The translations under genes and the position numbers were made by a program. A DNA stretch of 64,000 nt. Origin: Haloferax litoreum. GTDB taxonomy: Archaea; Halobacteriota; Halobacteria; Halobacteriales; Haloferacaceae. The notes beneath the pieces were generated by a model. The model was not told the DNA's origin. It did not search any database and was given only the letters and a program-made list of their open reading frames with translations. Each line of letters opens with the position of its first letter. Within the stretch, counting starts at the first letter, position 1. Below, one piece after another: positions 23,809 through 41,083 of this stretch. The stretch covers positions 372,001 to 436,000 of the forward strand of contig NZ_WKJO01000001.1 of NCBI RefSeq assembly GCF_009674605.1. Reading direction: 5' to 3'.

Positions 23809-24534
23809 ATGCATTGCCGGCGGTGTGGGAATCCGTTAGCCAAACCGGGAGACTACTGTCTCACCTGCAACACCGCCAACTGCGACGCCGTCGTCGCCGT
23901 CTTCGACACCGACCGCGCGACGCTCACGTTCCTCGACGAAGACGACATCGTCGGCGAGACGACGGTCACGACCATCCCCGAGACGGACGACGACACCAGA
24001 GTCGTCCAACTGCGGAACTTCGCGGGCCTCGTCGCCGACGAGATTCGACGCAAACGCCCCGAGACGGTCTACGCCGCAGGCGAGCGTGCCCCCCTGCGCG
24101 AGACGCGCGCCCAACTCCACTACGAGTTCTACCGCGTCACTGAAACGGATCCGGTACAGGCCGTCCTCGACCGGCGAGGGGAACGAGCGCTGGAAGTCGT
24201 CGACATCCCACCCGCGGAGAAACTCGGTGGCAGTCACACGACACTCATCGGCGGGCGAAAGGGCAGACGGGCGATTGGCGTCGTCGCCGGCCACCCGCAC
24301 GTCAAGAAGGTCATTCCCGGCCCTATCGACGCCAGTGGAACCGGGTCGCGGACCGGTCTCCGCGCCAAAGTCACGCGGGCCGATACCAATGGAAACGTCA
24401 GACTCCTCTTACGCGATGGGTCGAGCGTCCAAGAAAACCGCATCGTCACGACGGCGATGAACCGCGAGACGGGCGAACGCGTCCGCGACGACCTGAACGA
24501 CGCACTGCGGGAAGACGGCTTACAGGACGAGTGA
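23809..24534 (+). CDS. DUF2103 family zinc-ribbon protein
   Basis: A 241-aa soluble protein. Residues 1-25 form a zinc ribbon (MHCRRCGNPLAKPGDYCLTC), followed by a conserved domain with EKLGGSHTTLIGGRKGRRAIGVVAGHPHVKKVIPGPI, the hallmark I associate with DUF2103 (annotated as predicted metal-binding). The C-terminus reads VRLLLRDGSSVQENRIVTTA, resembling a nucleic-acid-binding barrel. The start at 23809 is preferred over an upstream in-frame ATG because a TATA-like sequence (AATATAAACG, from about 23767) is better spaced. Function is unknown. Confidence 0.75.
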   Translation: MHCRRCGNPLAKPGDYCLTCNTANCDAVVAVFDTDRATLTFLDEDDIVGETTVTTIPETDDDTRVVQLRNFAGLVADEIRRKRPETVYAAGERAPLRETRAQLHYEFYRVTETDPVQAVLDRRGERALEVVDIPPAEKLGGSHTTLIGGRKGRRAIGVVAGHPHVKKVIPGPIDASGTGSRTGLRAKVTRADTNGNVRLLLRDGSSVQENRIVTTAMNRETGERVRDDLNDALREDGLQDE

Positions 24535-24674
24535 CCTCGTGCCCACTGGGTGAGCGACGAGGAGGGTTCTGTGAGAGTCTCGACGGCCGAGAGGAGTCGC
24601 GTTCGAAGCGGGTTCCCGCCAGACGGGGAAATTCCCGCCGGAATTGGTAATACCGTAGCAAGCGTCTAAGTAGC

Positions 24675-25463
24675 ATGATAACACCGGTCGAAGACATCGA
24701 ATTTCTGGCTCGTTCAGCACACCGTGTGAACGCGCTCGGTGCACTGGCGGCCGGCCCCCAGAGTCGCGAGGACCTACGGGAAGCGATCGGCGCATCGAAC
24801 GCCACGGTCGGACGTCTCCTCAACGAGTTCGACAAGCGAACCTGGATATCGCGTGACGGTCACCGATACGAACTGACACCGCTCGGTGAGTTCATCGCCA
24901 CTGGGTTCTTCGACCTCGTAGAACGATTCGAGACAGAGCACTCGATCCGTGACATCTGGCAGTGGTTCCCCGCCGGTCTCGGGTTCACCATCGACATGTT
25001 CTCCGGGTCGACGATCACACTGCAAGACGAGCGCAACCCCTACTGTCCGAACAGCCGCTACGCCGAACTCATCGAGACGTCCGAGTCGCTCCGAGAGGTG
25101 GGAACTGTTCTCCACAAGCCGGAGAACGTCGAGATGGTGTTTGAGCGTGCTGTCGACGGCATGGAGGTCGAACTCGTCTTTCCGAGAGAAGTAATGACGG
25201 ACATGGTCGGCTTCGCTCCCGAACTCGCGGACGAGGCGCTGAAGAGCGGGAATCTCGTTCTTCTGGTCTACGACGACCTTCCGGATGGGTTCTGGATATT
25301 CGACGAGCGTGTCGGAATGTGCTGTCGCGACCAAGAGACGGAACTCTCCCGGGCCGTCATCGATACCAGCACGGCCGAAGCGCGAGCGCACGCGCAGTCG
25401 CTCTACGACGCGTACAGAAGCGAGGCAACCCCGTTCAACCCAACTGTGTTCGTCGCGAGCTAA
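24675..25463 (+). CDS. HTH regulator with FilR1-type sensor domain
   Basis: A 262-aa regulator. An N-terminal winged helix (about 10-75: ALAAGPQSREDLREAIGASNATVGRLLNEF) is followed by a domain resembling the FilR1/DUF1724 sensor (about 120-250). In other archaea such proteins respond to small ligands; FilR1 was described in methanogen filament control, but the ligand class here is unknown. It lies 208 bp upstream of a coupled three-gene unit on the same strand and is a natural candidate to control it. Confidence 0.75.
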   Translation: MITPVEDIEFLARSAHRVNALGALAAGPQSREDLREAIGASNATVGRLLNEFDKRTWISRDGHRYELTPLGEFIATGFFDLVERFETEHSIRDIWQWFPAGLGFTIDMFSGSTITLQDERNPYCPNSRYAELIETSESLREVGTVLHKPENVEMVFERAVDGMEVELVFPREVMTDMVGFAPELADEALKSGNLVLLVYDDLPDGFWIFDERVGMCCRDQETELSRAVIDTSTAEARAHAQSLYDAYRSEATPFNPTVFVAS

Positions 25464-25671
25464 CACCTCCGCTGCAGACTCCCGTCGTCGACGGGGAGCA
25501 CGAGCGTGCGTATCTAGCCTCAGAGTGCGGTAATTTCGATTTCAACTCCCGGAGGATGTCACGCATCGAGGACGAAACTGTATCGAGGAAAGAGCGGATT
25601 TCAGCATGTGCAATGATATCACGCAGCATCGTCAAGAACCATGGGCGCCATTAGTAAGTGAGGAAACAAGT

Positions 25672-25851
25672 ATGGCAACAGTAATCAGACAGACTAAGAA
25701 CACGGTCCCCGTTGGGATGACACCCGTTCCGAAGTACGCCACTTGGGACGAACACCGTGATGCATTGCGCCAGGAGGCCGAGGCTCTTCGAGCGAAGATG
25801 GAACGGCGACGGACCGAGGGTGCCACAGATCACCGTTCTGCGGTGAGATAA
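25672..25851 (+). CDS. 59-residue protein coupled to an FAD oxidase
   Basis: A small ORF that is probably real: its TAA shares one base with the ATG of the oxidase gene, its codon use is like its neighbours, and it has a clear start (AAGTATGGCA). The sequence is basic at the N-terminus (VIRQTKNTVPVGMTPVPKYA), followed by an amphipathic helix rich in Arg, Glu and Ala (HRDALRQEAEALRAKMERRR). No signal peptide or Cys. It could be a regulatory leader, a chaperone or a partner peptide of the oxidase. No family known to me. Confidence 0.6.
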   Translation: MATVIRQTKNTVPVGMTPVPKYATWDEHRDALRQEAEALRAKMERRRTEGATDHRSAVR

Positions 25852-27260
25852 TGGCCTTGACAGCAGACCGACCGCTGGCTAACGACGAAATCGACGCACT
25901 TAGAGACAGACTCAGAGGTGATGTCCTGCTCCAGACTGACGAGGAATACGACGAGAGACGGTCGATCTGGAACGCAGCAATCGACAGGCGTCCAGCAGTC
26001 GTCGTTCGACCACTCGGGGCCGCCGACGTGATGGCCGCGGTCCGATTCGCCCGTGAACAGAGCCTCGAGATATCCATCCGCGGCGGGGGACACCACGTGG
26101 CTGGGCACGCTGTCACAGACGGCGGACTGATGATTGACTGCTCGGCGATGAAATCGGTCCGTGTGAACCCCGACGGAAAACGGGCGTGGGTCGAACCCGG
26201 TGCACTCCTCCACGACGTGGACGTCGAGACACAGGCGCACGGGCTCGTCCTCCCGGGCGGCTTCATTTCTCTGGTCGGAATCGGCGGTCTGACGCTGGGC
26301 GGCGGGTTCGGGTACCTGTCACGCTCACTTGGGCTGACCGTCGACAACCTCCGGTCGGTCGAGTTGGTGACCGCCGACGGGGAGTTCGTCACCGCGAGCG
26401 AGAGCGAGAACTCCGACCTGTTCTGGGCACTCCGCGGCGGCGGTGGGAACTTCGGCGTCGTGACGGCGTTCGAGTTCGGTCTTCACGAACTCGAGCCTAC
26501 TGTCCTGGCGGGCCCCATCGTCTACGACTTCGCGGACGCCCCCGAAGTGATGGCTGCGGTTACCGGCGCCATTCGGGAGGGCCCGGACGAAATCGGGTGT
26601 GTCATGACGCTTCGGAAGGCACCACCCGCTCCGTTCCTCCCCGAGGAGGTTCACGGCCAGTCAGTACTCATCGTGACGGTGATGTACGGCGGTGACGTGT
26701 CCGCGGGCGAAGAGGCGCTCGCACCGATTCGTGCGATCGGTTCCCCGATTGCCGACGCCGTCGGACCGAAGCCGTACGCGGTGTTCCAAACGATGTTCGA
26801 CGCGGCCGCTGGCCTCGGCGCGCGCAACTACTGGAAGACACACTACCTCGCGGAGATGAGTCCGGAAGCAATCCGCGCCATCTGCGACCGTGCCACCGAC
26901 ATCGCCTCGCCCGAGACGGCCATCGGGATGATGGCGCTCGGCCGTGAGATTGCCCGCCGCCCGGCCGACTCCACTCCGTACCAGCACCGCGACGCAGAGT
27001 GGTTCGTGGTCATCCAAGCCCGCTGGCGCGAAGCCGACGAGGACGGGACCCACACCGGATGGGCACGGGGACTGTTCGAGGACCTCGCGCCGCACGCGAC
27101 CGGTGGTGTGTACCTCAACGCCACCAGTCTCGACGAGGACGAGACGGGCGTCCGCGACGCTTTCGGGGCGGACACGTACGAGCGTCTCGTGACGGTGAAA
27201 ACTGAATGGGACCCAGAAAACGTGTTCCACCTTAATCCGAACGTGCGGCCAGAAGCCTGA
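25851..27260 (+). CDS. FAD-linked oxidoreductase (BBE/VAO type)
   Basis: A 469-aa flavin oxidase of the berberine-bridge/VAO superfamily. The FAD-binding domain covers about residues 40-210, with SIRGGGHHVAGHA, where the histidine normally holds FAD covalently, and GIGGLTLGGGFGYLSRSLGL. The second site, often Cys in bicovalent enzymes, reads GGFISLVG, so a single covalent link is likelier. The C-terminal BBE domain ends with the classic TEWDPENVFHLNPNV. Substrates are typically sugars, alcohols or secondary metabolites. It is the middle gene of a tightly coupled trio. Confidence 0.9.
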   Translation: MALTADRPLANDEIDALRDRLRGDVLLQTDEEYDERRSIWNAAIDRRPAVVVRPLGAADVMAAVRFAREQSLEISIRGGGHHVAGHAVTDGGLMIDCSAMKSVRVNPDGKRAWVEPGALLHDVDVETQAHGLVLPGGFISLVGIGGLTLGGGFGYLSRSLGLTVDNLRSVELVTADGEFVTASESENSDLFWALRGGGGNFGVVTAFEFGLHELEPTVLAGPIVYDFADAPEVMAAVTGAIREGPDEIGCVMTLRKAPPAPFLPEEVHGQSVLIVTVMYGGDVSAGEEALAPIRAIGSPIADAVGPKPYAVFQTMFDAAAGLGARNYWKTHYLAEMSPEAIRAICDRATDIASPETAIGMMALGREIARRPADSTPYQHRDAEWFVVIQARWREADEDGTHTGWARGLFEDLAPHATGGVYLNATSLDEDETGVRDAFGADTYERLVTVKTEWDPENVFHLNPNVRPEA

Positions 27261-27580
27261 TGGAAATCGTGTTCATCACGTTCGAGTCGGAACTGCGTCT
27301 CGAGGAGGTCGAGGCCCGATTTCGAGCGCGGACCCGGCAGTTCCGCGACATGGGTGGACTCCTGCAGAAGTTCTACGTTCACGACGAGCAGCGTGGACGG
27401 AATGGGGGAATCTACGTCTTCGACTCCGAAGCGTCTCGCGACGCGTTGTTCGAGTCGGAGATTCACGCCAACCTCCGAGACGCACCCGATGTACACGACC
27501 TCGACATCGTGACGTTCCACGTGTTGTTCCCGCTCTACGAGTTCGGCGACGTTTCGACGCCCACAGACACTCAGCCGTAG
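27260..27580 (+). CDS. Small YdhR/ABM-type monooxygenase-like protein
   Basis: A 106-aa alpha/beta-barrel dimer-type protein. MEIVFITFESELRLEEVEAR..FRDMGGLLQKFYVHDEQRGRNGGIYVFDSEASRDAL resembles the YdhR/antibiotic-biosynthesis-monooxygenase group. Those proteins either oxidise small aromatics without cofactors or act as stress proteins. Its ATG overlaps the oxidase TGA by one base (TGATG), so it is made along with the flavoprotein and may act on the same metabolite. Confidence 0.7.
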   Translation: MEIVFITFESELRLEEVEARFRARTRQFRDMGGLLQKFYVHDEQRGRNGGIYVFDSEASRDALFESEIHANLRDAPDVHDLDIVTFHVLFPLYEFGDVSTPTDTQP

Positions 27581-27657
27581 CCACGATGTGTCGACAGCGC
27601 AGTTTCGTCCGACCGTCAGTTACTGGGTGCTTTTCGATAGCGTTTCCGTGAACTCAC

Positions 27658-28662
27658 TTACTGCTGTGTCGCTTCGGGAGACTGGTCCGAGTCGGTACCG
27701 AGGCGAATCGGTTCGGCCGCGACCCCTTGTTCGCGGTACCACTCGACCGTCTCTTCGATAGCCGTTTCGAGTGGCGTCGCCGTCACCGCATCGCCGAACG
27801 CGTCTCTGAACTTCGAGTCGTCAACGATGAACGGCGCTTCGAACGAGTACCGCTGTTCGCTGAGTTCCTTCAGCGGCGAACTCACGTAACTACCGAGCGT
27901 CAACACGAGTCCCGAGGCGGCGACGATGTGTGGGAATCCCGGGTCGGCCCCCGCGGCGTCGTAGACGAAGTCGACGAAGCGGCGGGTCGAAACAGTCTCC
28001 GGGTTCGGCACGTGCCACGCCTCGCCGAGTGCTTCGTCACGCTCGCCGAGGAGGACCAGCGCACGTGCGAAGTCCGGGACGTAGGTGTACGTGTGGGGGT
28101 ATTTCGGGGTCCCGAAGACCATCGCACGCTTGCCAGCGACGGCGGCACCGAACACCTGTTCGCCGACGGCAGACTCGCGGACTCGCGGGCCGAAGAAGTC
28201 GCTCGCCCGGCCGATGGTCGCCTCGATTCGCCCCTCGTCGTGGGCGTCGAGGACCATCCGGGCGCACGCCGCGCGCGTTCGTCCCTTCGGGCCTGTGGCC
28301 GCGTACGGCAGGTCTTCGGTGAGTCGGGCGTCTACCTCGCCGTACATGTAGAGGTTCTCCGCGACGACCAACCGTGCGTCGGCGGCCTCCACACCTTCGA
28401 CGATGCCACGAGTCAGGTCGGGGAACAGTTCCGGCCACGAGTCGTAGGGAGGTTGCGCGCACTGGTAGACCACGTCCGCGTCGGCGAACGCTTCGGCCGC
28501 AACGGTCGGGTCTGAGACGTCGACTCTGCGGTGTTCGACGCCCTCGGGGAGCGTGTGTTTCACGTGTCGTGTGACGACGACGACGTCCTCGTCGCGTTCA
28601 CGGAGGTGTTCTGCGACTGCCAGTCCGACTGGACCCGCCCCGACAACGAGGTGTTTTGTCAT
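27658..28662 (-). CDS. NAD(P)-dependent epimerase/dehydratase (extended SDR-like)
   Basis: A 334-aa Rossmann protein. MTKHLVVGAGPVGLAVAEHL is the nucleotide-binding loop (GxGxxG-like), and VYQCAQPPYDSWPELFPDLTRG and VVAENLYMYG follow the extended-SDR pattern, though the usual YxxxK is degenerate. It probably acts on a nucleotide-sugar or similar substrate; specificity is unknown. The start at 28662 follows family alignment: the upstream in-frame residues are not conserved in character. Divergent from the ribosomal protein gene. Confidence 0.78.
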   Translation of the reverse strand: MTKHLVVGAGPVGLAVAEHLRERDEDVVVVTRHVKHTLPEGVEHRRVDVSDPTVAAEAFADADVVYQCAQPPYDSWPELFPDLTRGIVEGVEAADARLVVAENLYMYGEVDARLTEDLPYAATGPKGRTRAACARMVLDAHDEGRIEATIGRASDFFGPRVRESAVGEQVFGAAVAGKRAMVFGTPKYPHTYTYVPDFARALVLLGERDEALGEAWHVPNPETVSTRRFVDFVYDAAGADPGFPHIVAASGLVLTLGSYVSSPLKELSEQRYSFEAPFIVDDSKFRDAFGDAVTATPLETAIEETVEWYREQGVAAEPIRLGTDSDQSPEATQQ

Positions 28663-28764
28663 GCTACTCACTACGCGAAGTAGCGACAAAGCCGTGTCTA
28701 GGGTTCCGTCTGGCCGAGACGACTCGTAGGGTTTATCCATACTGCCGAGGTAGTTCGCGGTACT

Positions 28765-36501: not shown

Positions 36502-37167
36502 TCACTCGGTGTCGTATCGGAGCCAGACGAGGCCATCGTCGAGTAACTCGACCGCTTTTCGGTGAAGTTCGACACCCTCCTCGGCGAGTGTCGGGCCGGG
36601 TTCAGGACCACGCAGGAAGGGCCGTGCAGACTCGCCACCGACGAGTCGCGGGTGGACGAGGACGCTCACCTCGTTCACGAGGCCGGCACGGAGGAGGACG
36701 CCGGAGAGTGTCCCACCGCTATCGACGAGGACTGTCTCGATGCCGTGCGTCGATTCGAGTGAAGTCAAGGCGGCAGAGAGGTCGACTCGGTCGTCACCCG
36801 CTTCGATAGCCTCGATACCGACTCGTTCGAGGTACGTGCGGTACTCGTCGGGCGTGGACGCGGAGACGAGCGCGATGCCGCGACTCCAGAACGGACTTTC
36901 GAGGAGACCACGCCAGTTGCGGATTTGGCCGCGACTGTCGGGGACGACGAGCAGTGGACAGTCCTCGTCTTGGACCTCGAACGGCGCGAGCGATGCTGGG
37001 TCGTCGGCGGGTGGTGCCTCTTCGTCGGCGAGGAGTGTCTCACTGCCGACGAGGTGAACGTCGGCGTTCCACGTCGCGGCGAGTTCGTAGAACGTCCCGA
37101 TGTCCGCGGGGAAACCTTCGATTCGGCCGTCGAGACTGACGGCGCTGTGGACGACGACGTGGGCCAT
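36502..37167 (-). CDS. RibD C-terminal-type reductase (possible pyrimidinone-phosphate reductase)
   Basis: A 221-aa dihydrofolate-reductase-fold protein. The start MAHVVVHSAVSLDGRIEGF is the typical substrate-binding entry of RibD-C/ArfC enzymes. VDSGGTLSGVLLRAGLVNEVSVLVHPRLVGG is the conserved end, and HLVGSETLLAD carries the nucleotide-binding region. Archaeal relatives reduce the ribosylamino-pyrimidine in riboflavin synthesis, but RibD-C domains also include unrelated reductases, so the substrate is open. ATG at 37167. Confidence 0.78.
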   Translation of the reverse strand: MAHVVVHSAVSLDGRIEGFPADIGTFYELAATWNADVHLVGSETLLADEEAPPADDPASLAPFEVQDEDCPLLVVPDSRGQIRNWRGLLESPFWSRGIALVSASTPDEYRTYLERVGIEAIEAGDDRVDLSAALTSLESTHGIETVLVDSGGTLSGVLLRAGLVNEVSVLVHPRLVGGESARPFLRGPEPGPTLAEEGVELHRKAVELLDDGLVWLRYDTE

Positions 37168-37256
37168 GTGGGAGATACGTCGCGTACGGACAAATCGATA
37201 TGTGAAGCGATGCAGACACCGGGCCGTACAAGGTTCCCGAGCCACGACAGGTCAAT

Positions 37257-37592
37257 GTGACAGACGCCGCCTTCGTCGTCGATATCAAACCCTCGGCCCG
37301 CCGGACCAACGGCGCAGTGGGGACACTCGTTAATCGGCGCGGCGCGCGACACGTCTTCAGTTCCCGCGACGACGCCGAGATGTGGGCCAGTGGCCTGTCG
37401 AGTCGTGGGAGCGTCGCCGTCTGGATTCGCAGTGCCGACCCGCGCGACGAGAGCGACGTGGACGCGTATCTGGTCGGCAGGCGTGCGCGCGAGTCGGTGC
37501 TTGCGGGCGCGTACGACAAGCGACGGCGGCGGTTACGTGGAGGAGACGACGGCGAGCAAGTGGCGTTCGAGACGTTCGACGGCGAGAGTTAG
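37257..37592 (+). CDS. Uncharacterised basic haloarchaeal protein (111 aa)
   Basis: A 111-aa protein starting with GTG (VTDAAFVVDIKPSARRTNG). The N-terminal part may be a small beta domain (AFVVDIKP...RHVFSSRDDAEMWASGL); the C-terminal part is Arg-rich (KRRRRLRGG), which is unusual among the acidic neighbours and suggests nucleic-acid contact. It overlaps the 3' end of the convergent small membrane-protein gene by a few bases. Family unknown to me. Confidence 0.6.
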   Translation: MTDAAFVVDIKPSARRTNGAVGTLVNRRGARHVFSSRDDAEMWASGLSSRGSVAVWIRSADPRDESDVDAYLVGRRARESVLAGAYDKRRRRLRGGDDGEQVAFETFDGES

Positions 37593-37765
37593 TCGCTGGC
37601 CGAAGAGTGATTCGCTGTCGACGACGAGAACGTGAGCACTGCGCCGCCGAGCACGATTGCGAGGACGAGGCCCAGTACGCCCGCCGCCCGGTACGCTTCG
37701 GCGACGAGAATGAGGAACAAGAGGGCCAAGACTGCGTCGAGTTTCTTCGTGAGCGTGGGGTCCAT
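37589..37765 (-). CDS. Small membrane protein (58 aa)
   Basis: A 58-aa protein that begins MDPTLTKKLDAVLALLFLIL, has two hydrophobic segments (about 9-22 and 28-46) with one Glu between them, and ends in a Ser-rich tail. The 3' end overlaps the end of the convergent gene by 3-4 bp. The strong start and the haloarchaeal codon pattern make it credible. Function unknown. Confidence 0.6.
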   Translation of the reverse strand: MDPTLTKKLDAVLALLFLILVAEAYRAAGVLGLVLAIVLGGAVLTFSSSTANHSSASD

Positions 37766-38035
37766 AGTCGTCGTTTCTGGAGAATATGTGACAACTCTTT
37801 CGGCGACGTGCGTGTGTGCACTCGCAGGGTACGTCGTAAGTGGCGTCGACAGAGTGGAGTGGACACGTCACTGCGGGGTACTGTCCCCGGTTTCGTTCAT
37901 AAAGCTTTGCACTGGAGATGTCAGATTATGGCGCTGCTGAAAGACCATCAGAGCAAGACAGGAATAGCGTGCTGAATAGAGGGGGTGAGTTCAGCAAATA
38001 AGAAGTCGAAAGTCCGGCAGCTTATCGGCTGAGGA

Positions 38036-38400
38036 AGTAATTTCCAATCCCTGCGACCACACCGTAGAGTAACAGAACTCCGATGAGAACCCCCAATAAT
38101 CGCACCGAGAGCATTATCACGAAATCTATGAAAATCTCTCCAATAATCAGCCACCATTCTTTGATTGGCCTTCAGAATCCCCCAATCTATCCCAACAACC
38201 CATCTCACAGAGACGACTGTACCCACAAGGACGCCCCAAGAAGCTAGTGCAAGTCCAGCAGGATTAGAGGGTGTTGTCTAACAAGGAGATAATCGCTCCC
38301 ACTATCGCCCAGCCAAGGATACAAACGATAACCCATGGGGAATTGTATCTCGCCTCTTGAACGAGAATTCCGCACAAGCCATCAGTAGACGTGTATCCTC
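38036..38400 (-). pseudogene. Decayed small membrane-protein gene(s) in AT-richer island
   Basis: Three hydrophobic pieces lie in different minus-strand frames: SPWVIVCILGWAIVGAIISL, followed by a stop near 38274; then ALASWGVLVGTVVSVRWVVG; then MLSVRLLGVLIGVLLLYGVV, ending GNYFLSR-stop at about 38036. None has a convincing start, and stops or frame changes separate them, as in a broken polytopic protein. The base composition is distinctly less GC-rich than the flanks. Two tiny intact proteins cannot be ruled out. The rest of 37766-38567 shows no gene. Confidence 0.35.
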
Positions 38401-38504
38401 ACTCATCATTTTGAGAAAAGCTGGTCAAGGACTTTGACAGTGCCCAAATCCCTGTCAAGACACGAACCAGATGCGCTCCCGTGATAAACCGGCTGAAGAG
38501 GAAA

Positions 38505-38516
38505 AGCGCCGAGGGT
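38505..38516. repeat. Partial copy of tRNA-Ser 3' end (possible att remnant)
   Basis: AGCGCCGAGGGT, identical to 39920-39931, which covers the last bases of the tRNA-Ser gene plus two flanking bases. The two copies face the same way and enclose 1.4 kb with the TnpB gene. It is short, so chance is possible. Confidence 0.35.
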
Positions 38517-38567
38517 CAGTAACCAACGTGAGCACGTAAGCTTGTCAGTGGACTTTGCATCTATCTC

Positions 38568-39806
38568 TCAGAGGGAGTAGGCACTGAAGTCGCCATGTAG
38601 ATTCAACGTCCCTGACGTCAGCGCACACTGACAGGGTGCGCCTCCACCCGGAGACTTCTGCTCCGAATGGAGTGTCTTCATGAGTTTACGAGCGATGTTC
38701 TTGCTCGCATTATAATCTGCGTTCGATTGGTACCCGCACTTCCGACACACAAATGCGTGCTTCGACGGACGGTTCGATTTGTGCGTGAACCCACACTTCG
38801 AACACCGTTGGCTCGTGTACGCTGGGTCCACCTGCTCAACCGCAATCCCCAACATCTCGGCCTTGTATTCGACGTACTCGAACAATCGCCTGAACGCCCA
38901 AGCGTGAAATTTCTTTGTACCAGCCATCCGAGTGCGAATATCTGTCAGGTTCTCAAACGCAATGTGTGTACAACCGTGACCACGAGCTTCGGAAACAATT
39001 TCGCAAGACACGCGATGTAGTTCGTCTTTCATCCATCGACGCTCACGGTACTTCATCGACTGAATCGAAAGGTGTGCAGACCGCGTCCCCGTCCGTTGCA
39101 TCGACCCGCGGGTCGTCTCAAACTCACGACGACGATGATTCATTTTGTTGGCATTCCCGATGAACGAACCCGTTGAGGTTACGGCAAGTGTGCCGTCTAC
39201 ATTTACATCGACACCAAGGACTGTTCTGTGCTTGCTATCGGAGGTTTTCATAGGTAGCTCACGAACGGGGCGACGCATTCGTGCGTGGAGGTAGAACGAT
39301 TCTGTTGATTGGTCGTACTGCAGTGTGGACATACGGAACTCGAAGTCCTCGTTTAGCAGGTACTCGCCAATCGGAGTCCCATCCGGGTCGTCAGGAAGAA
39401 CATAATTACACTCAACGCGACCATTCACCGTTGAGAGCGAAACATGGTCACGGTAGAACGTCGCACTTCGCTTGTCGTAGACGACGCTCCACGCGTCGAA
39501 GTGTGGTTGACTTGTGTTCTCACCTTTCTTGAGTCGGGCGACACCACTTTTGCTGGCCTCGATAGCACGGCGAATCCCTTTCTGTACGAGGTTCGCGGTC
39601 AACTCTGTCTCACTACGAAGTTGCTCGTAGAGGGCTTTCTCGGCTTTCTGTTTTGAGGTCACACAGTAGTCGTTTGGGTACCTCCATGCCCACTCTGCGG
39701 TAGTGTTTGCACAGTGGAGGAACTGATTTTTGGTCTGATGGAGGTCGTCGCACCGCTCGTCAGGTACGTCAAGTTTGACTATTACAGTGCGAATTATGTG
39801 CTCCAC
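38568..39806 (-). CDS. tnpB: TnpB (IS200/IS605 family RNA-guided nuclease), orphan
   Basis: A 412-aa TnpB. The RuvC triad is intact: Asp in LGVDVNVDGTLAV, Glu in HIAFENLTDIR and Asp in SNADYNASKNIARK. The zinc finger CSKCGFTHKSNRPSKHAFVCRKCG is also complete, so nuclease activity is plausible. The GTG at 39806 gives the family N-terminus VEHIIRTVIVKLDV. No TnpA transposase is near, so it is an orphan or non-autonomous copy. Its 3' end holds hairpins at 38610-38636 and 38649-38665, the place where such elements encode the guide RNA. The gene lies beside tRNA-Ser in an AT-richer island. Confidence 0.9.
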   Translation of the reverse strand: MEHIIRTVIVKLDVPDERCDDLHQTKNQFLHCANTTAEWAWRYPNDYCVTSKQKAEKALYEQLRSETELTANLVQKGIRRAIEASKSGVARLKKGENTSQPHFDAWSVVYDKRSATFYRDHVSLSTVNGRVECNYVLPDDPDGTPIGEYLLNEDFEFRMSTLQYDQSTESFYLHARMRRPVRELPMKTSDSKHRTVLGVDVNVDGTLAVTSTGSFIGNANKMNHRRREFETTRGSMQRTGTRSAHLSIQSMKYRERRWMKDELHRVSCEIVSEARGHGCTHIAFENLTDIRTRMAGTKKFHAWAFRRLFEYVEYKAEMLGIAVEQVDPAYTSQRCSKCGFTHKSNRPSKHAFVCRKCGYQSNADYNASKNIARKLMKTLHSEQKSPGGGAPCQCALTSGTLNLHGDFSAYSL

Positions 39807-39919
39807 TACGGCCTTCTGGCCCCGTCTTAGCTTATAAATGTGAGCACAGTCGAGGAATATCGACTTCAAGCAATGAAGCTCAACACTACAGGTCAACGAC
39901 TGGGTTTTGAGAGAATGTG

Positions 39920-39931
39920 AGCGCCGAGGGT
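39920..39931. repeat. Right copy of 12-bp repeat at tRNA-Ser 3' end
   Basis: AGCGCCGAGGGT at the 3' end of the tRNA-Ser gene (minus-strand gene), matching 38505-38516. If the island entered by integration at the tRNA, this would be the copy that keeps the gene whole. Confidence 0.35.
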
Positions 39932-40006
39932 GAGATTTGAACTCACGTGTCCGAATGGACAGTAGATTTCGAATCTACCGCCTTGGCCGGGCTAGGCTAC
40001 CTCGGC
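39922..40006 (-). tRNA. tRNA-Ser (CGA)
   Basis: An 85-nt gene that folds as a type II tRNA. The acceptor stem is GCCGAGG with CCTCGGC and discriminator G. The D-arm begins TAGCCTAGCCCGGCCAAGGC, and the anticodon loop TTCGAAA sits in a five-pair stem (GTAGA/TCTAC), giving anticodon CGA for UCG codons. The long variable arm (TGTCC/GGACA) is typical of serine tRNA, and the T-loop is TTCAAAT. No CCA is encoded and no intron is present. Its 3' side faces the TnpB island. Confidence 0.93.
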
Positions 40007-40132
40007 TTCCATTGCTTCATATCTCGCGGATAGTTTAATCCGTTTCGATTTCGAGAAGCTTCGAGTGCCGTGACCACACGACGAAACCGCGGCGACCACC
40101 GAGACTAAGTTCCGCGCAGACGGGGACGTAGC

Positions 40133-41083
40133 ATGGACATCGACCAGGCGAGCGAAACGTGTTCGCAGGTTCTCGACGCCATCTCCGGGGCCGTCATCGC
40201 CGAACGGTCGTTCCTCGAAACCGTTCTCACGGGCGTCCTCGCCCGTGGCCACGTCCTCCTCGAAGACGTTCCGGGGACGGGAAAGACCCTCACCGCCCGG
40301 AGTGTGGCGACCGCACTCGGCCTCTCGTTTTCGCGCGTGCAGTTTACGCCGGACCTCCTCCCGGCCGACGTGACCGGGACGAACATCTACGACGAACGCG
40401 ACCGGTCCTTCGAGTTCTCACCCGGACCCATCTTCGCGAACGTCGTCCTCGCCGACGAAATCAACCGCGCACCACCGAAGACGCAGGCGGCCCTCCTCGA
40501 AGCGATGGAGGAAGGACAGGTGACCGTCGACGGCGAGACGCACCAACTCCCGAAACCGTTCTTCGTCATCGCCACGCAGAACCCCGTCGAACAGGAGGGG
40601 ACGTTCACGCTCCCAGAAGCACAGGTGGACCGCTTCGTCGTGAAGTCGGCTATCGGTTACCCTGACCTCGACGGTGAAATCGAACTCCTCCGCCGACGCG
40701 CAGGCCGTGAGGAACAAAGCCCGAGCATCGAACGCGTCCTCGACCGGGAGTCCGTGGTCGCTATCCGCCGGGCGCCCGAGCAGGTTCGCGTCGACGACGA
40801 CCTGTTGGGCTACATGGCCGAACTCACCCGCGAGACACGGACCGACCGGCGCGTCCGCGTCGGCGTCTCACCCCGTGGGACGCAACGGCTGTTCGAAGCC
40901 TCGCGTGCCCGTGCCGTCATCGAAGGACGGGCGTACGTCACGCCCGACGACGTGAAGCGCGTCGCACAGTCCGTCCTCGCACATCGCCTCGTCCTCACGC
41001 CGGACGCTCGCGTCGAAGACGTGCAGAAGGCAGACGTGGTTGCTGAGGTTCTCGACCGAGTGACGGTGCCGACGATAGACTGA
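40133..41083 (+). CDS. MoxR-family AAA+ ATPase
   Basis: A 316-aa AAA+ ATPase. Walker A is LEDVPGTGKTLTARSVA, Walker B is NVVLADEINRAPPKTQAALLEAMEEGQV, sensor 1 is VIATQNPVEQEGTFTLPEAQVDRF, and a C-terminal lid follows. MoxR proteins act as chaperones for metal insertion or assembly of VWA-type (DUF58) partners. Here the DUF58 protein is encoded in the convergent operon 37 bp away, which fits that pairing. It follows tRNA-Ser, divergently. Confidence 0.92.
   Translation: MDIDQASETCSQVLDAISGAVIAERSFLETVLTGVLARGHVLLEDVPGTGKTLTARSVATALGLSFSRVQFTPDLLPADVTGTNIYDERDRSFEFSPGPIFANVVLADEINRAPPKTQAALLEAMEEGQVTVDGETHQLPKPFFVIATQNPVEQEGTFTLPEAQVDRFVVKSAIGYPDLDGEIELLRRRAGREEQSPSIERVLDRESVVAIRRAPEQVRVDDDLLGYMAELTRETRTDRRVRVGVSPRGTQRLFEASRARAVIEGRAYVTPDDVKRVAQSVLAHRLVLTPDARVEDVQKADVVAEVLDRVTVPTID

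Follow-up and report, generated by a model that had tools for sequence, protein, structure and literature searches.

We find that a 59-aa open reading frame in the 64-kb stretch of DNA analysed here (hereafter the window; G000:C1:372001-436000, set in a chromosome-sized contig of Haloferax litoreum) is, judging from the sequence comparisons below, a real gene, and that it represents a microprotein family of haloarchaea for which the libraries searched have no entry. On the + strand the gene follows a FilR1-type regulator and precedes an EncM/BBE-like oxidase gene and a YdhR-like gene, and we see about an even chance that these genes form a horizontally acquired, mobile and inducible oxidation cassette, resting on a core of regulator, operator and microprotein. 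The definition of the family, together with a concrete list of partners and a candidate 39-bp operator, opens the functions of the microprotein and of the FilR1-type sensor to direct tests in a group amenable to genetics. The features concerned are as follows (positions within the window).

24535..27648, no strand assigned: the whole unit, a 3.1-kb insertion, from the empty site in relatives
24675..25463, + strand: FilR1-type regulator, with an HVO_A0261_N winged helix at residues 6-89 and a FilR1_middle sensor at residues 122-249 (Pfam)
25596..25634, + strand: 39-bp conserved element, a candidate operator/promoter, at -76 to -38 from the ATG of the small gene
25672..25851, + strand: 59-aa basic microprotein, core VPVGMTPVPKYATWDEHR (A3 alignment, pN/pS, structure model, charge)
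25851..27260, + strand: EncM/BBE-like FAD oxidase (Pfam; PDB match to EncM; residue comparison)
27260..27580, + strand: YdhR-like protein (PF08803; 79% ortholog in genome G353, shortened remnant in genome G253)

Layout and insertion site of the unit

The unit lies between a convergent DUF2103 gene, which ends at 24534, and a gene for an NAD-dependent epimerase (27658-28740, - strand). A sequence-only reading made previously had described the last three genes as joined by overlapping junctions behind the regulator, and its coordinates hold, as do the junctions themselves: TAATG between the small gene and the oxidase gene (25849-25853) and TGATG between the oxidase and YdhR-like genes (27258-27262), with one base common to both genes in each case. 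However, the overlap of small gene and oxidase is restricted to the window genome, and gaps of 3 bases are found in its place in G353 and G253, the genomes of two further genera in which the small gene lies directly upstream of an ortholog of the oxidase.

In a relative whose flanking genes are 94% identical to those of the window (G006), these genes are 24 bp apart, and positions 24535-27648 are extra in the window. Such an empty site is present in five of the eight aligned loci of the genus, with gaps of about 24-283 bp, and the right side is arranged differently in three of the eight. Within the 14 other species of the genus, a 22-member profile gave no match to the small gene at E<=0.001, and a single-sequence search returned weak matches in two of these species (E 0.05-0.06), at the level expected by chance. 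It is on the empty sites in relatives, and not on composition, that our reading of insertion or transfer rests: we rejected a foreign composition for the unit (its tetranucleotide distance ranks 32nd against 122 windows) as well as a foreign G+C content (0.617 against 0.626). Inspection of the insertion by eye revealed no clear terminal repeats. Elsewhere in the window, positions 37000-40600 combine the lowest G+C (0.549) with the most deviant tetranucleotides, and are possibly foreign DNA.

A family of small basic proteins

A start at 25672, giving 59 aa, is preferred over an 81-aa frame from 25606 because the ATG and a GAGG Shine-Dalgarno sequence align in six genomes, and because conservation upstream of 25672 is at the level of DNA, the reading frame there differing across the six. 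Values of pN/pS among the six small genes range between 0.32 and 0.55 in all 15 pairs. The first search found relatives in two genomes (G020 and G029, E 2e-9 and 1e-7), a three-sequence profile in 27 of the 391 genomes searched from the class (E<=0.01, with 22 at E<=2.3e-9), and a 22-member profile, A3, in 11 of 170 genomes from the same taxonomic family and in 9 of 125, 4 of 146 and 4 of 10 genomes of three other families. In total, relatives are present in 29 haloarchaeal genomes, including G177, which was reached by the three-sequence profile. The A3 alignment is built without loci L102 and L104, and includes L085 (L085 and L151 denote one gene).

Members of the family are 42-65 aa long and share a core, VPVGxTPxxxYATWDEHR, that runs across the middle of the protein, with Gly15, Thr17, Pro18, Trp25, His28 and Arg29 invariant in A3. 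All 22 members are net positive, with pI between 10.0 and 11.9; by comparison, net charge per 100 aa across 41 large ORFs of the window has a median of -7.8 and does not exceed +1.6. The earlier statement that the protein has no known family is borne out, in that there is no above-cut-off match for it in Pfam, NCBIfam, PHROGs, PADLOC or PDB (22 members were compared with Pfam, PHROGs and PADLOC, and the window member only with NCBIfam), and no match in Pfam, PHROGs or PADLOC is common to more than two of the 22 members. We dismissed as chance a link to defence systems in PADLOC (best value 0.014, in 2 of 22 members), and also set aside weak Pfam and PHROG matches (0.0082-0.27; DUF7572, AvrRpt-cleavage, phrog_18832 and others), each from a single member of the 22, and a PDB match to 7kg5 (E 0.016) that covers only 28 residues. 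A viral link was rejected too, there being no relative in viral contigs or phage records; one plasmid record, from Natrinema gelatinilyticum, contains a relative. The haloarchaeal zinc-finger microproteins described in PMC10716476 carry two C(P)XCG motifs, whereas the 59-aa protein of the window has no Cys at all.

In a structure model built on five sequences, the N-terminus is extended and a helix spans residues 25-56; the mean pLDDT, 67, is weak. An amphipathic helix had been proposed for the protein, and while a helix is indeed predicted, its amphipathicity is not measurable (the moment of 0.25 is reached in 879 of 2000 shuffles). In two genomes, G444 and G445, the module is joined in-frame to an HSP20 domain (E 2.6e-13 and 3.2e-13; L148:6047-6466 and L149:5710-6129, respectively), making up the N-terminal part of a 140-aa protein, and displays the same core in the form VPVGMTPVPxYATWxEHR. 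This fusion is confined to one genus, and the window microprotein, unlike the fused proteins, is devoid of an alpha-crystallin domain. In G238, a 124-aa ORF (L104:5923-6294) holds the module twice in tandem; a gene for a Rieske-type protein follows this duplicated gene, and an HTH_10-type regulator is divergent on its other side.

A sceptical view of the small ORF would be that it is a mere leader that sets the translation of the next gene, and it does often lie upstream of a gene on the same strand. However, we regard this as highly improbable, given amino acid conservation in spite of unrelated neighbours, and a next gene that is on the opposite strand at L091, L096 and L103. Moreover, the tandem member and the Hsp20 fusion point to a module for protein interaction, not to a leader. 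A role in peptide tailoring, put forward in the sequence-only reading, is likewise unlikely, since the conserved core is located mid-protein and the module occurs in many contexts, including the Hsp20 fusion of two genomes.

The regulator, its candidate operator and the neighbours of the small gene

Both domains of the regulator are above their Pfam cut-offs (PF25213, 93.3 bits, cut-off 35; PF08350 FilR1_middle, 87.8 bits, cut-off 27), as for FilR1/HVO_A0261-type archaeal regulators, and the oxidase contains PF01565 (112.4 bits) and PF08031 (40.1 bits), in agreement with the FilR1-type and flavin-oxidase identities that had been assigned to them. The FilR1 of Methanosaeta is treated in PMC3991700 in the context of a two-component system that regulates methanogenesis, whereas the window regulator is found beside an oxidase in a haloarchaeon.

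We surveyed 31 loci of the small gene (30 fetched loci plus the window, with one, L154, being a weak fragment). A FilR1-type regulator of one orthologous group adjoins the small gene in six of them: it precedes the small gene on the same strand in the window and G353, is divergent in G253, and follows on the same strand in G177, G437 and G482; the enzymes are absent from three of these six loci of regulator, element and small gene. More distant regulators occur about 1 kb from the small gene in G238 and G524. An ortholog of the window regulator is lacking beside the small gene in 25 of the 31 loci. A regulator search that scored at most six candidates per genome may have missed orthologs. In the small-protein tree the regulator-linked members group together (support 0.88 for the window, L089, L090 and L093), and the link between regulator and microprotein may therefore stem from one founding event.

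The 39-bp element begins 74-76 bp before the ATG of the small gene in all six regulator-linked loci. A matrix built from these six sites scores them at 46-66, values that are high by construction, and has a best match of <=9.1 in each of 20 random 64-kb sequences; no site above 14 was found in the 30 other loci scanned. Allowing up to 3 mismatches, the consensus of the element occurs once per genome in three of 391 genomes (G000, G253 and G177), in every case before the small gene, in a scan for which G353 is too diverged for detection and which draws on a sample that G437 and G482 lie outside. We read the element as a candidate operator/promoter of the small gene, putatively bound by the adjoining regulator. 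Identity to the DNA-binding half of the window regulator (residues 1-89) is 96% in G353, 76% in G253, 79% in G177, 83% in G437 and 79% in G482, and the corresponding values for the sensor half (residues 122-249) are 85, 59, 15, 18 and 67%. By these identities G177 and G437 retain the DNA-binding half and have a different sensor, and their loci are without an oxidase; G482 has an oxidase-type sensor half yet no oxidase next to it, and the match between sensor and cargo is thus imperfect. The pattern suggests that the primary association of the microprotein is with a regulator-operator switch whose sensor can be exchanged and whose cargo is optional, its tie to the oxidase being secondary.

An orthologous oxidase follows the small gene in three of the 31 loci (the window, G353 at 88% and G253 at 84%), and G289 has a 40% oxidase paralog 258 bp downstream. 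There is no downstream oxidase in 27 of the loci, and eight of the 29 genomes that carry the small gene lack such an oxidase at E<=1e-60. The YdhR-like gene follows the oxidase in the window and in G353, and G253 keeps only the remnant, directly behind its oxidase (L090:7653-7794). Consequently, the outcome named in the sequence-only reading as its refutation, a small ORF not conserved with the oxidase gene, did not occur; that the small protein serves the oxidase in general is nonetheless unsupported, because the regulator with its candidate operator is the more conserved partner, and the oxidases most similar to those of the unit but outside it (74, 72 and 59%) have no small gene, regulator or YdhR beside them. 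Four relatives within the genus (G004, G007, G008 and G012) possess a cluster of oxidase, FilR1-type regulator (28-30%) and YdhR-like gene (46-51%) without the small gene. Association of the regulator with the enzymes thus occurs in the absence of the microprotein, and its association with the microprotein in the absence of the enzymes. At other loci, the neighbours named by Pfam include serS, chorismate synthase, OMP decarboxylase, a glyoxalase-like protein, a Rieske protein and a permease, and one further neighbour reads as aspS by eye. A universal stress protein was suspected as a recurring neighbour from equal lengths, and was rejected: Usp is present in G437 only, and the G353 gene taken for it encodes a different protein, alpha/beta-hydrolase-like by eye.

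Several roles for the microprotein may be weighed against this background. It could be a nucleic-acid- or ribosome-binding stress protein, with an incidental position before the oxidase. The high pI of all 22 members within an acidic proteome would fit such a role, as would the members upstream of serS or the aspS-like gene, but these tRNA-synthetase genes are neighbours in three genomes, which chance could explain, while proteins of this length with an unusual conserved aromatic/His/Arg core match no known nucleic-acid-binding family; we consider the idea unlikely. Somewhat less probable again is a co-regulator or feedback partner, which the FilR1-type regulator induces and which binds the regulator in return: the small gene is the first after the conserved element and adjoins the regulator in six genomes, from three families, whether or not the enzymes are present, although most family loci are without an ortholog of that regulator. 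We are more doubtful still that the microprotein serves the oxidase specifically, as a partner or as a peptide substrate. The close spacing to an oxidase ortholog in three genera, between 1 base of overlap and 3 bases of gap, speaks for this role, and against it stand the many loci, and the eight genomes, that do without such an oxidase.

The oxidase and a proposed mechanism

The oxidase has the characters of a BBE-like/VAO protein, including the flavin-linking His, and a PDB search places EncM as its best solved relative (E 9.9e-120 for the best chain). EncM is the FAD-dependent oxygenase of enterocin biosynthesis. The similarity extends over the full length (PDB 3w8w, 4xlo), and the flavin-linking His78 of EncM corresponds to window His81, which is kept in 43 of 43 aligned oxidase rows (three rows being repeats of a gene counted elsewhere in the set). 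Second by score among solved structures is 6-hydroxy-D-nicotine oxidase (PDB 2bvf; 192 bits, over residues 21-468 of the window oxidase), which is less similar than EncM. However, the EncM-type flavin-N5-oxygenase pocket (Val135, Val136, Thr139) is replaced in the window by Phe138, Ile139 and Val142, where Val142 corresponds to Thr139 of the O2 pocket and Phe138 to Val135; EncM His138 is Leu141. Moreover, in contrast to EncM, no biosynthetic cluster is apparent among the genes read beside the window oxidase.

At the position of EncM Thr139, 36 of the 43 rows (again with three repeats of a counted gene) have Thr, 3 have Val, 3 have Ile and 1 has Asn. Val is present in exactly the three oxidases of the unit (window, G353 and G253), and the nearest oxidases outside it carry Thr, the closest of them, at 74%, being that of G238 (C1:2514746). 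According to the review PMC7662398, the substitution T139V gave EncM oxidase activity. On this basis we predict that the unit enzyme is an ordinary oxidase giving H2O2, and not an EncM-type N5-oxygenase. The natural change from Thr to Val would provide a clean evolutionary test of the control of flavin oxidase versus N5-oxygenase chemistry. The product of the last gene matches PF08803 (ydhR; 39 bits, cut-off 27.1), a domain in common with E. coli YdhR (PDB 2hiq), to which it is distant by direct comparison (E 0.45).

Our overall reading, in which we place middling confidence, is of a self-regulated cassette with the FilR1-type regulator, the operator and the small basic protein as its core, and the oxidase and YdhR-like protein as cargo. 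The regulator would bind the 39-bp element and be set by a small metabolite through its FilR1 sensor, while coupled translation would yield the microprotein, the oxidase and the YdhR-like protein. The oxidase would then remove a hydride from the metabolite, producing H2O2, and the YdhR-like protein would handle the oxidase product. The small oxidation pathway of the sequence-only reading is plausible in this inducible form, but a general tie of the microprotein to the oxidase is unsupported. As to its biochemical role, we infer that the microprotein is most likely a basic interaction arm (the extended VPVGxTPxxxYATW segment and the helix) on an acidic partner protein, comparable in action to the N-terminal arm of a small heat-shock protein, a proposal made because the same module is the N-terminus of Hsp20 in two genomes. 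Rather more speculatively, the family may represent a novel class of microprotein, a portable interaction arm that is deployed on its own, with a private operator and FilR1 sensors that can be exchanged, tandem-duplicated, or fused to Hsp20, and that in the window accompanies an oxidase naturally past the step from oxygenase to oxidase represented by EncM T139V.

Two oxidase genes elsewhere are disrupted. That of the G008 cluster is broken into two fragments with about 1.8 kb between them (L114:1461-4482), and an EncM-like oxidase gene near a small-family gene in G238 (G238:C3:158206-159546, in L100) is interrupted by a TAG stop.
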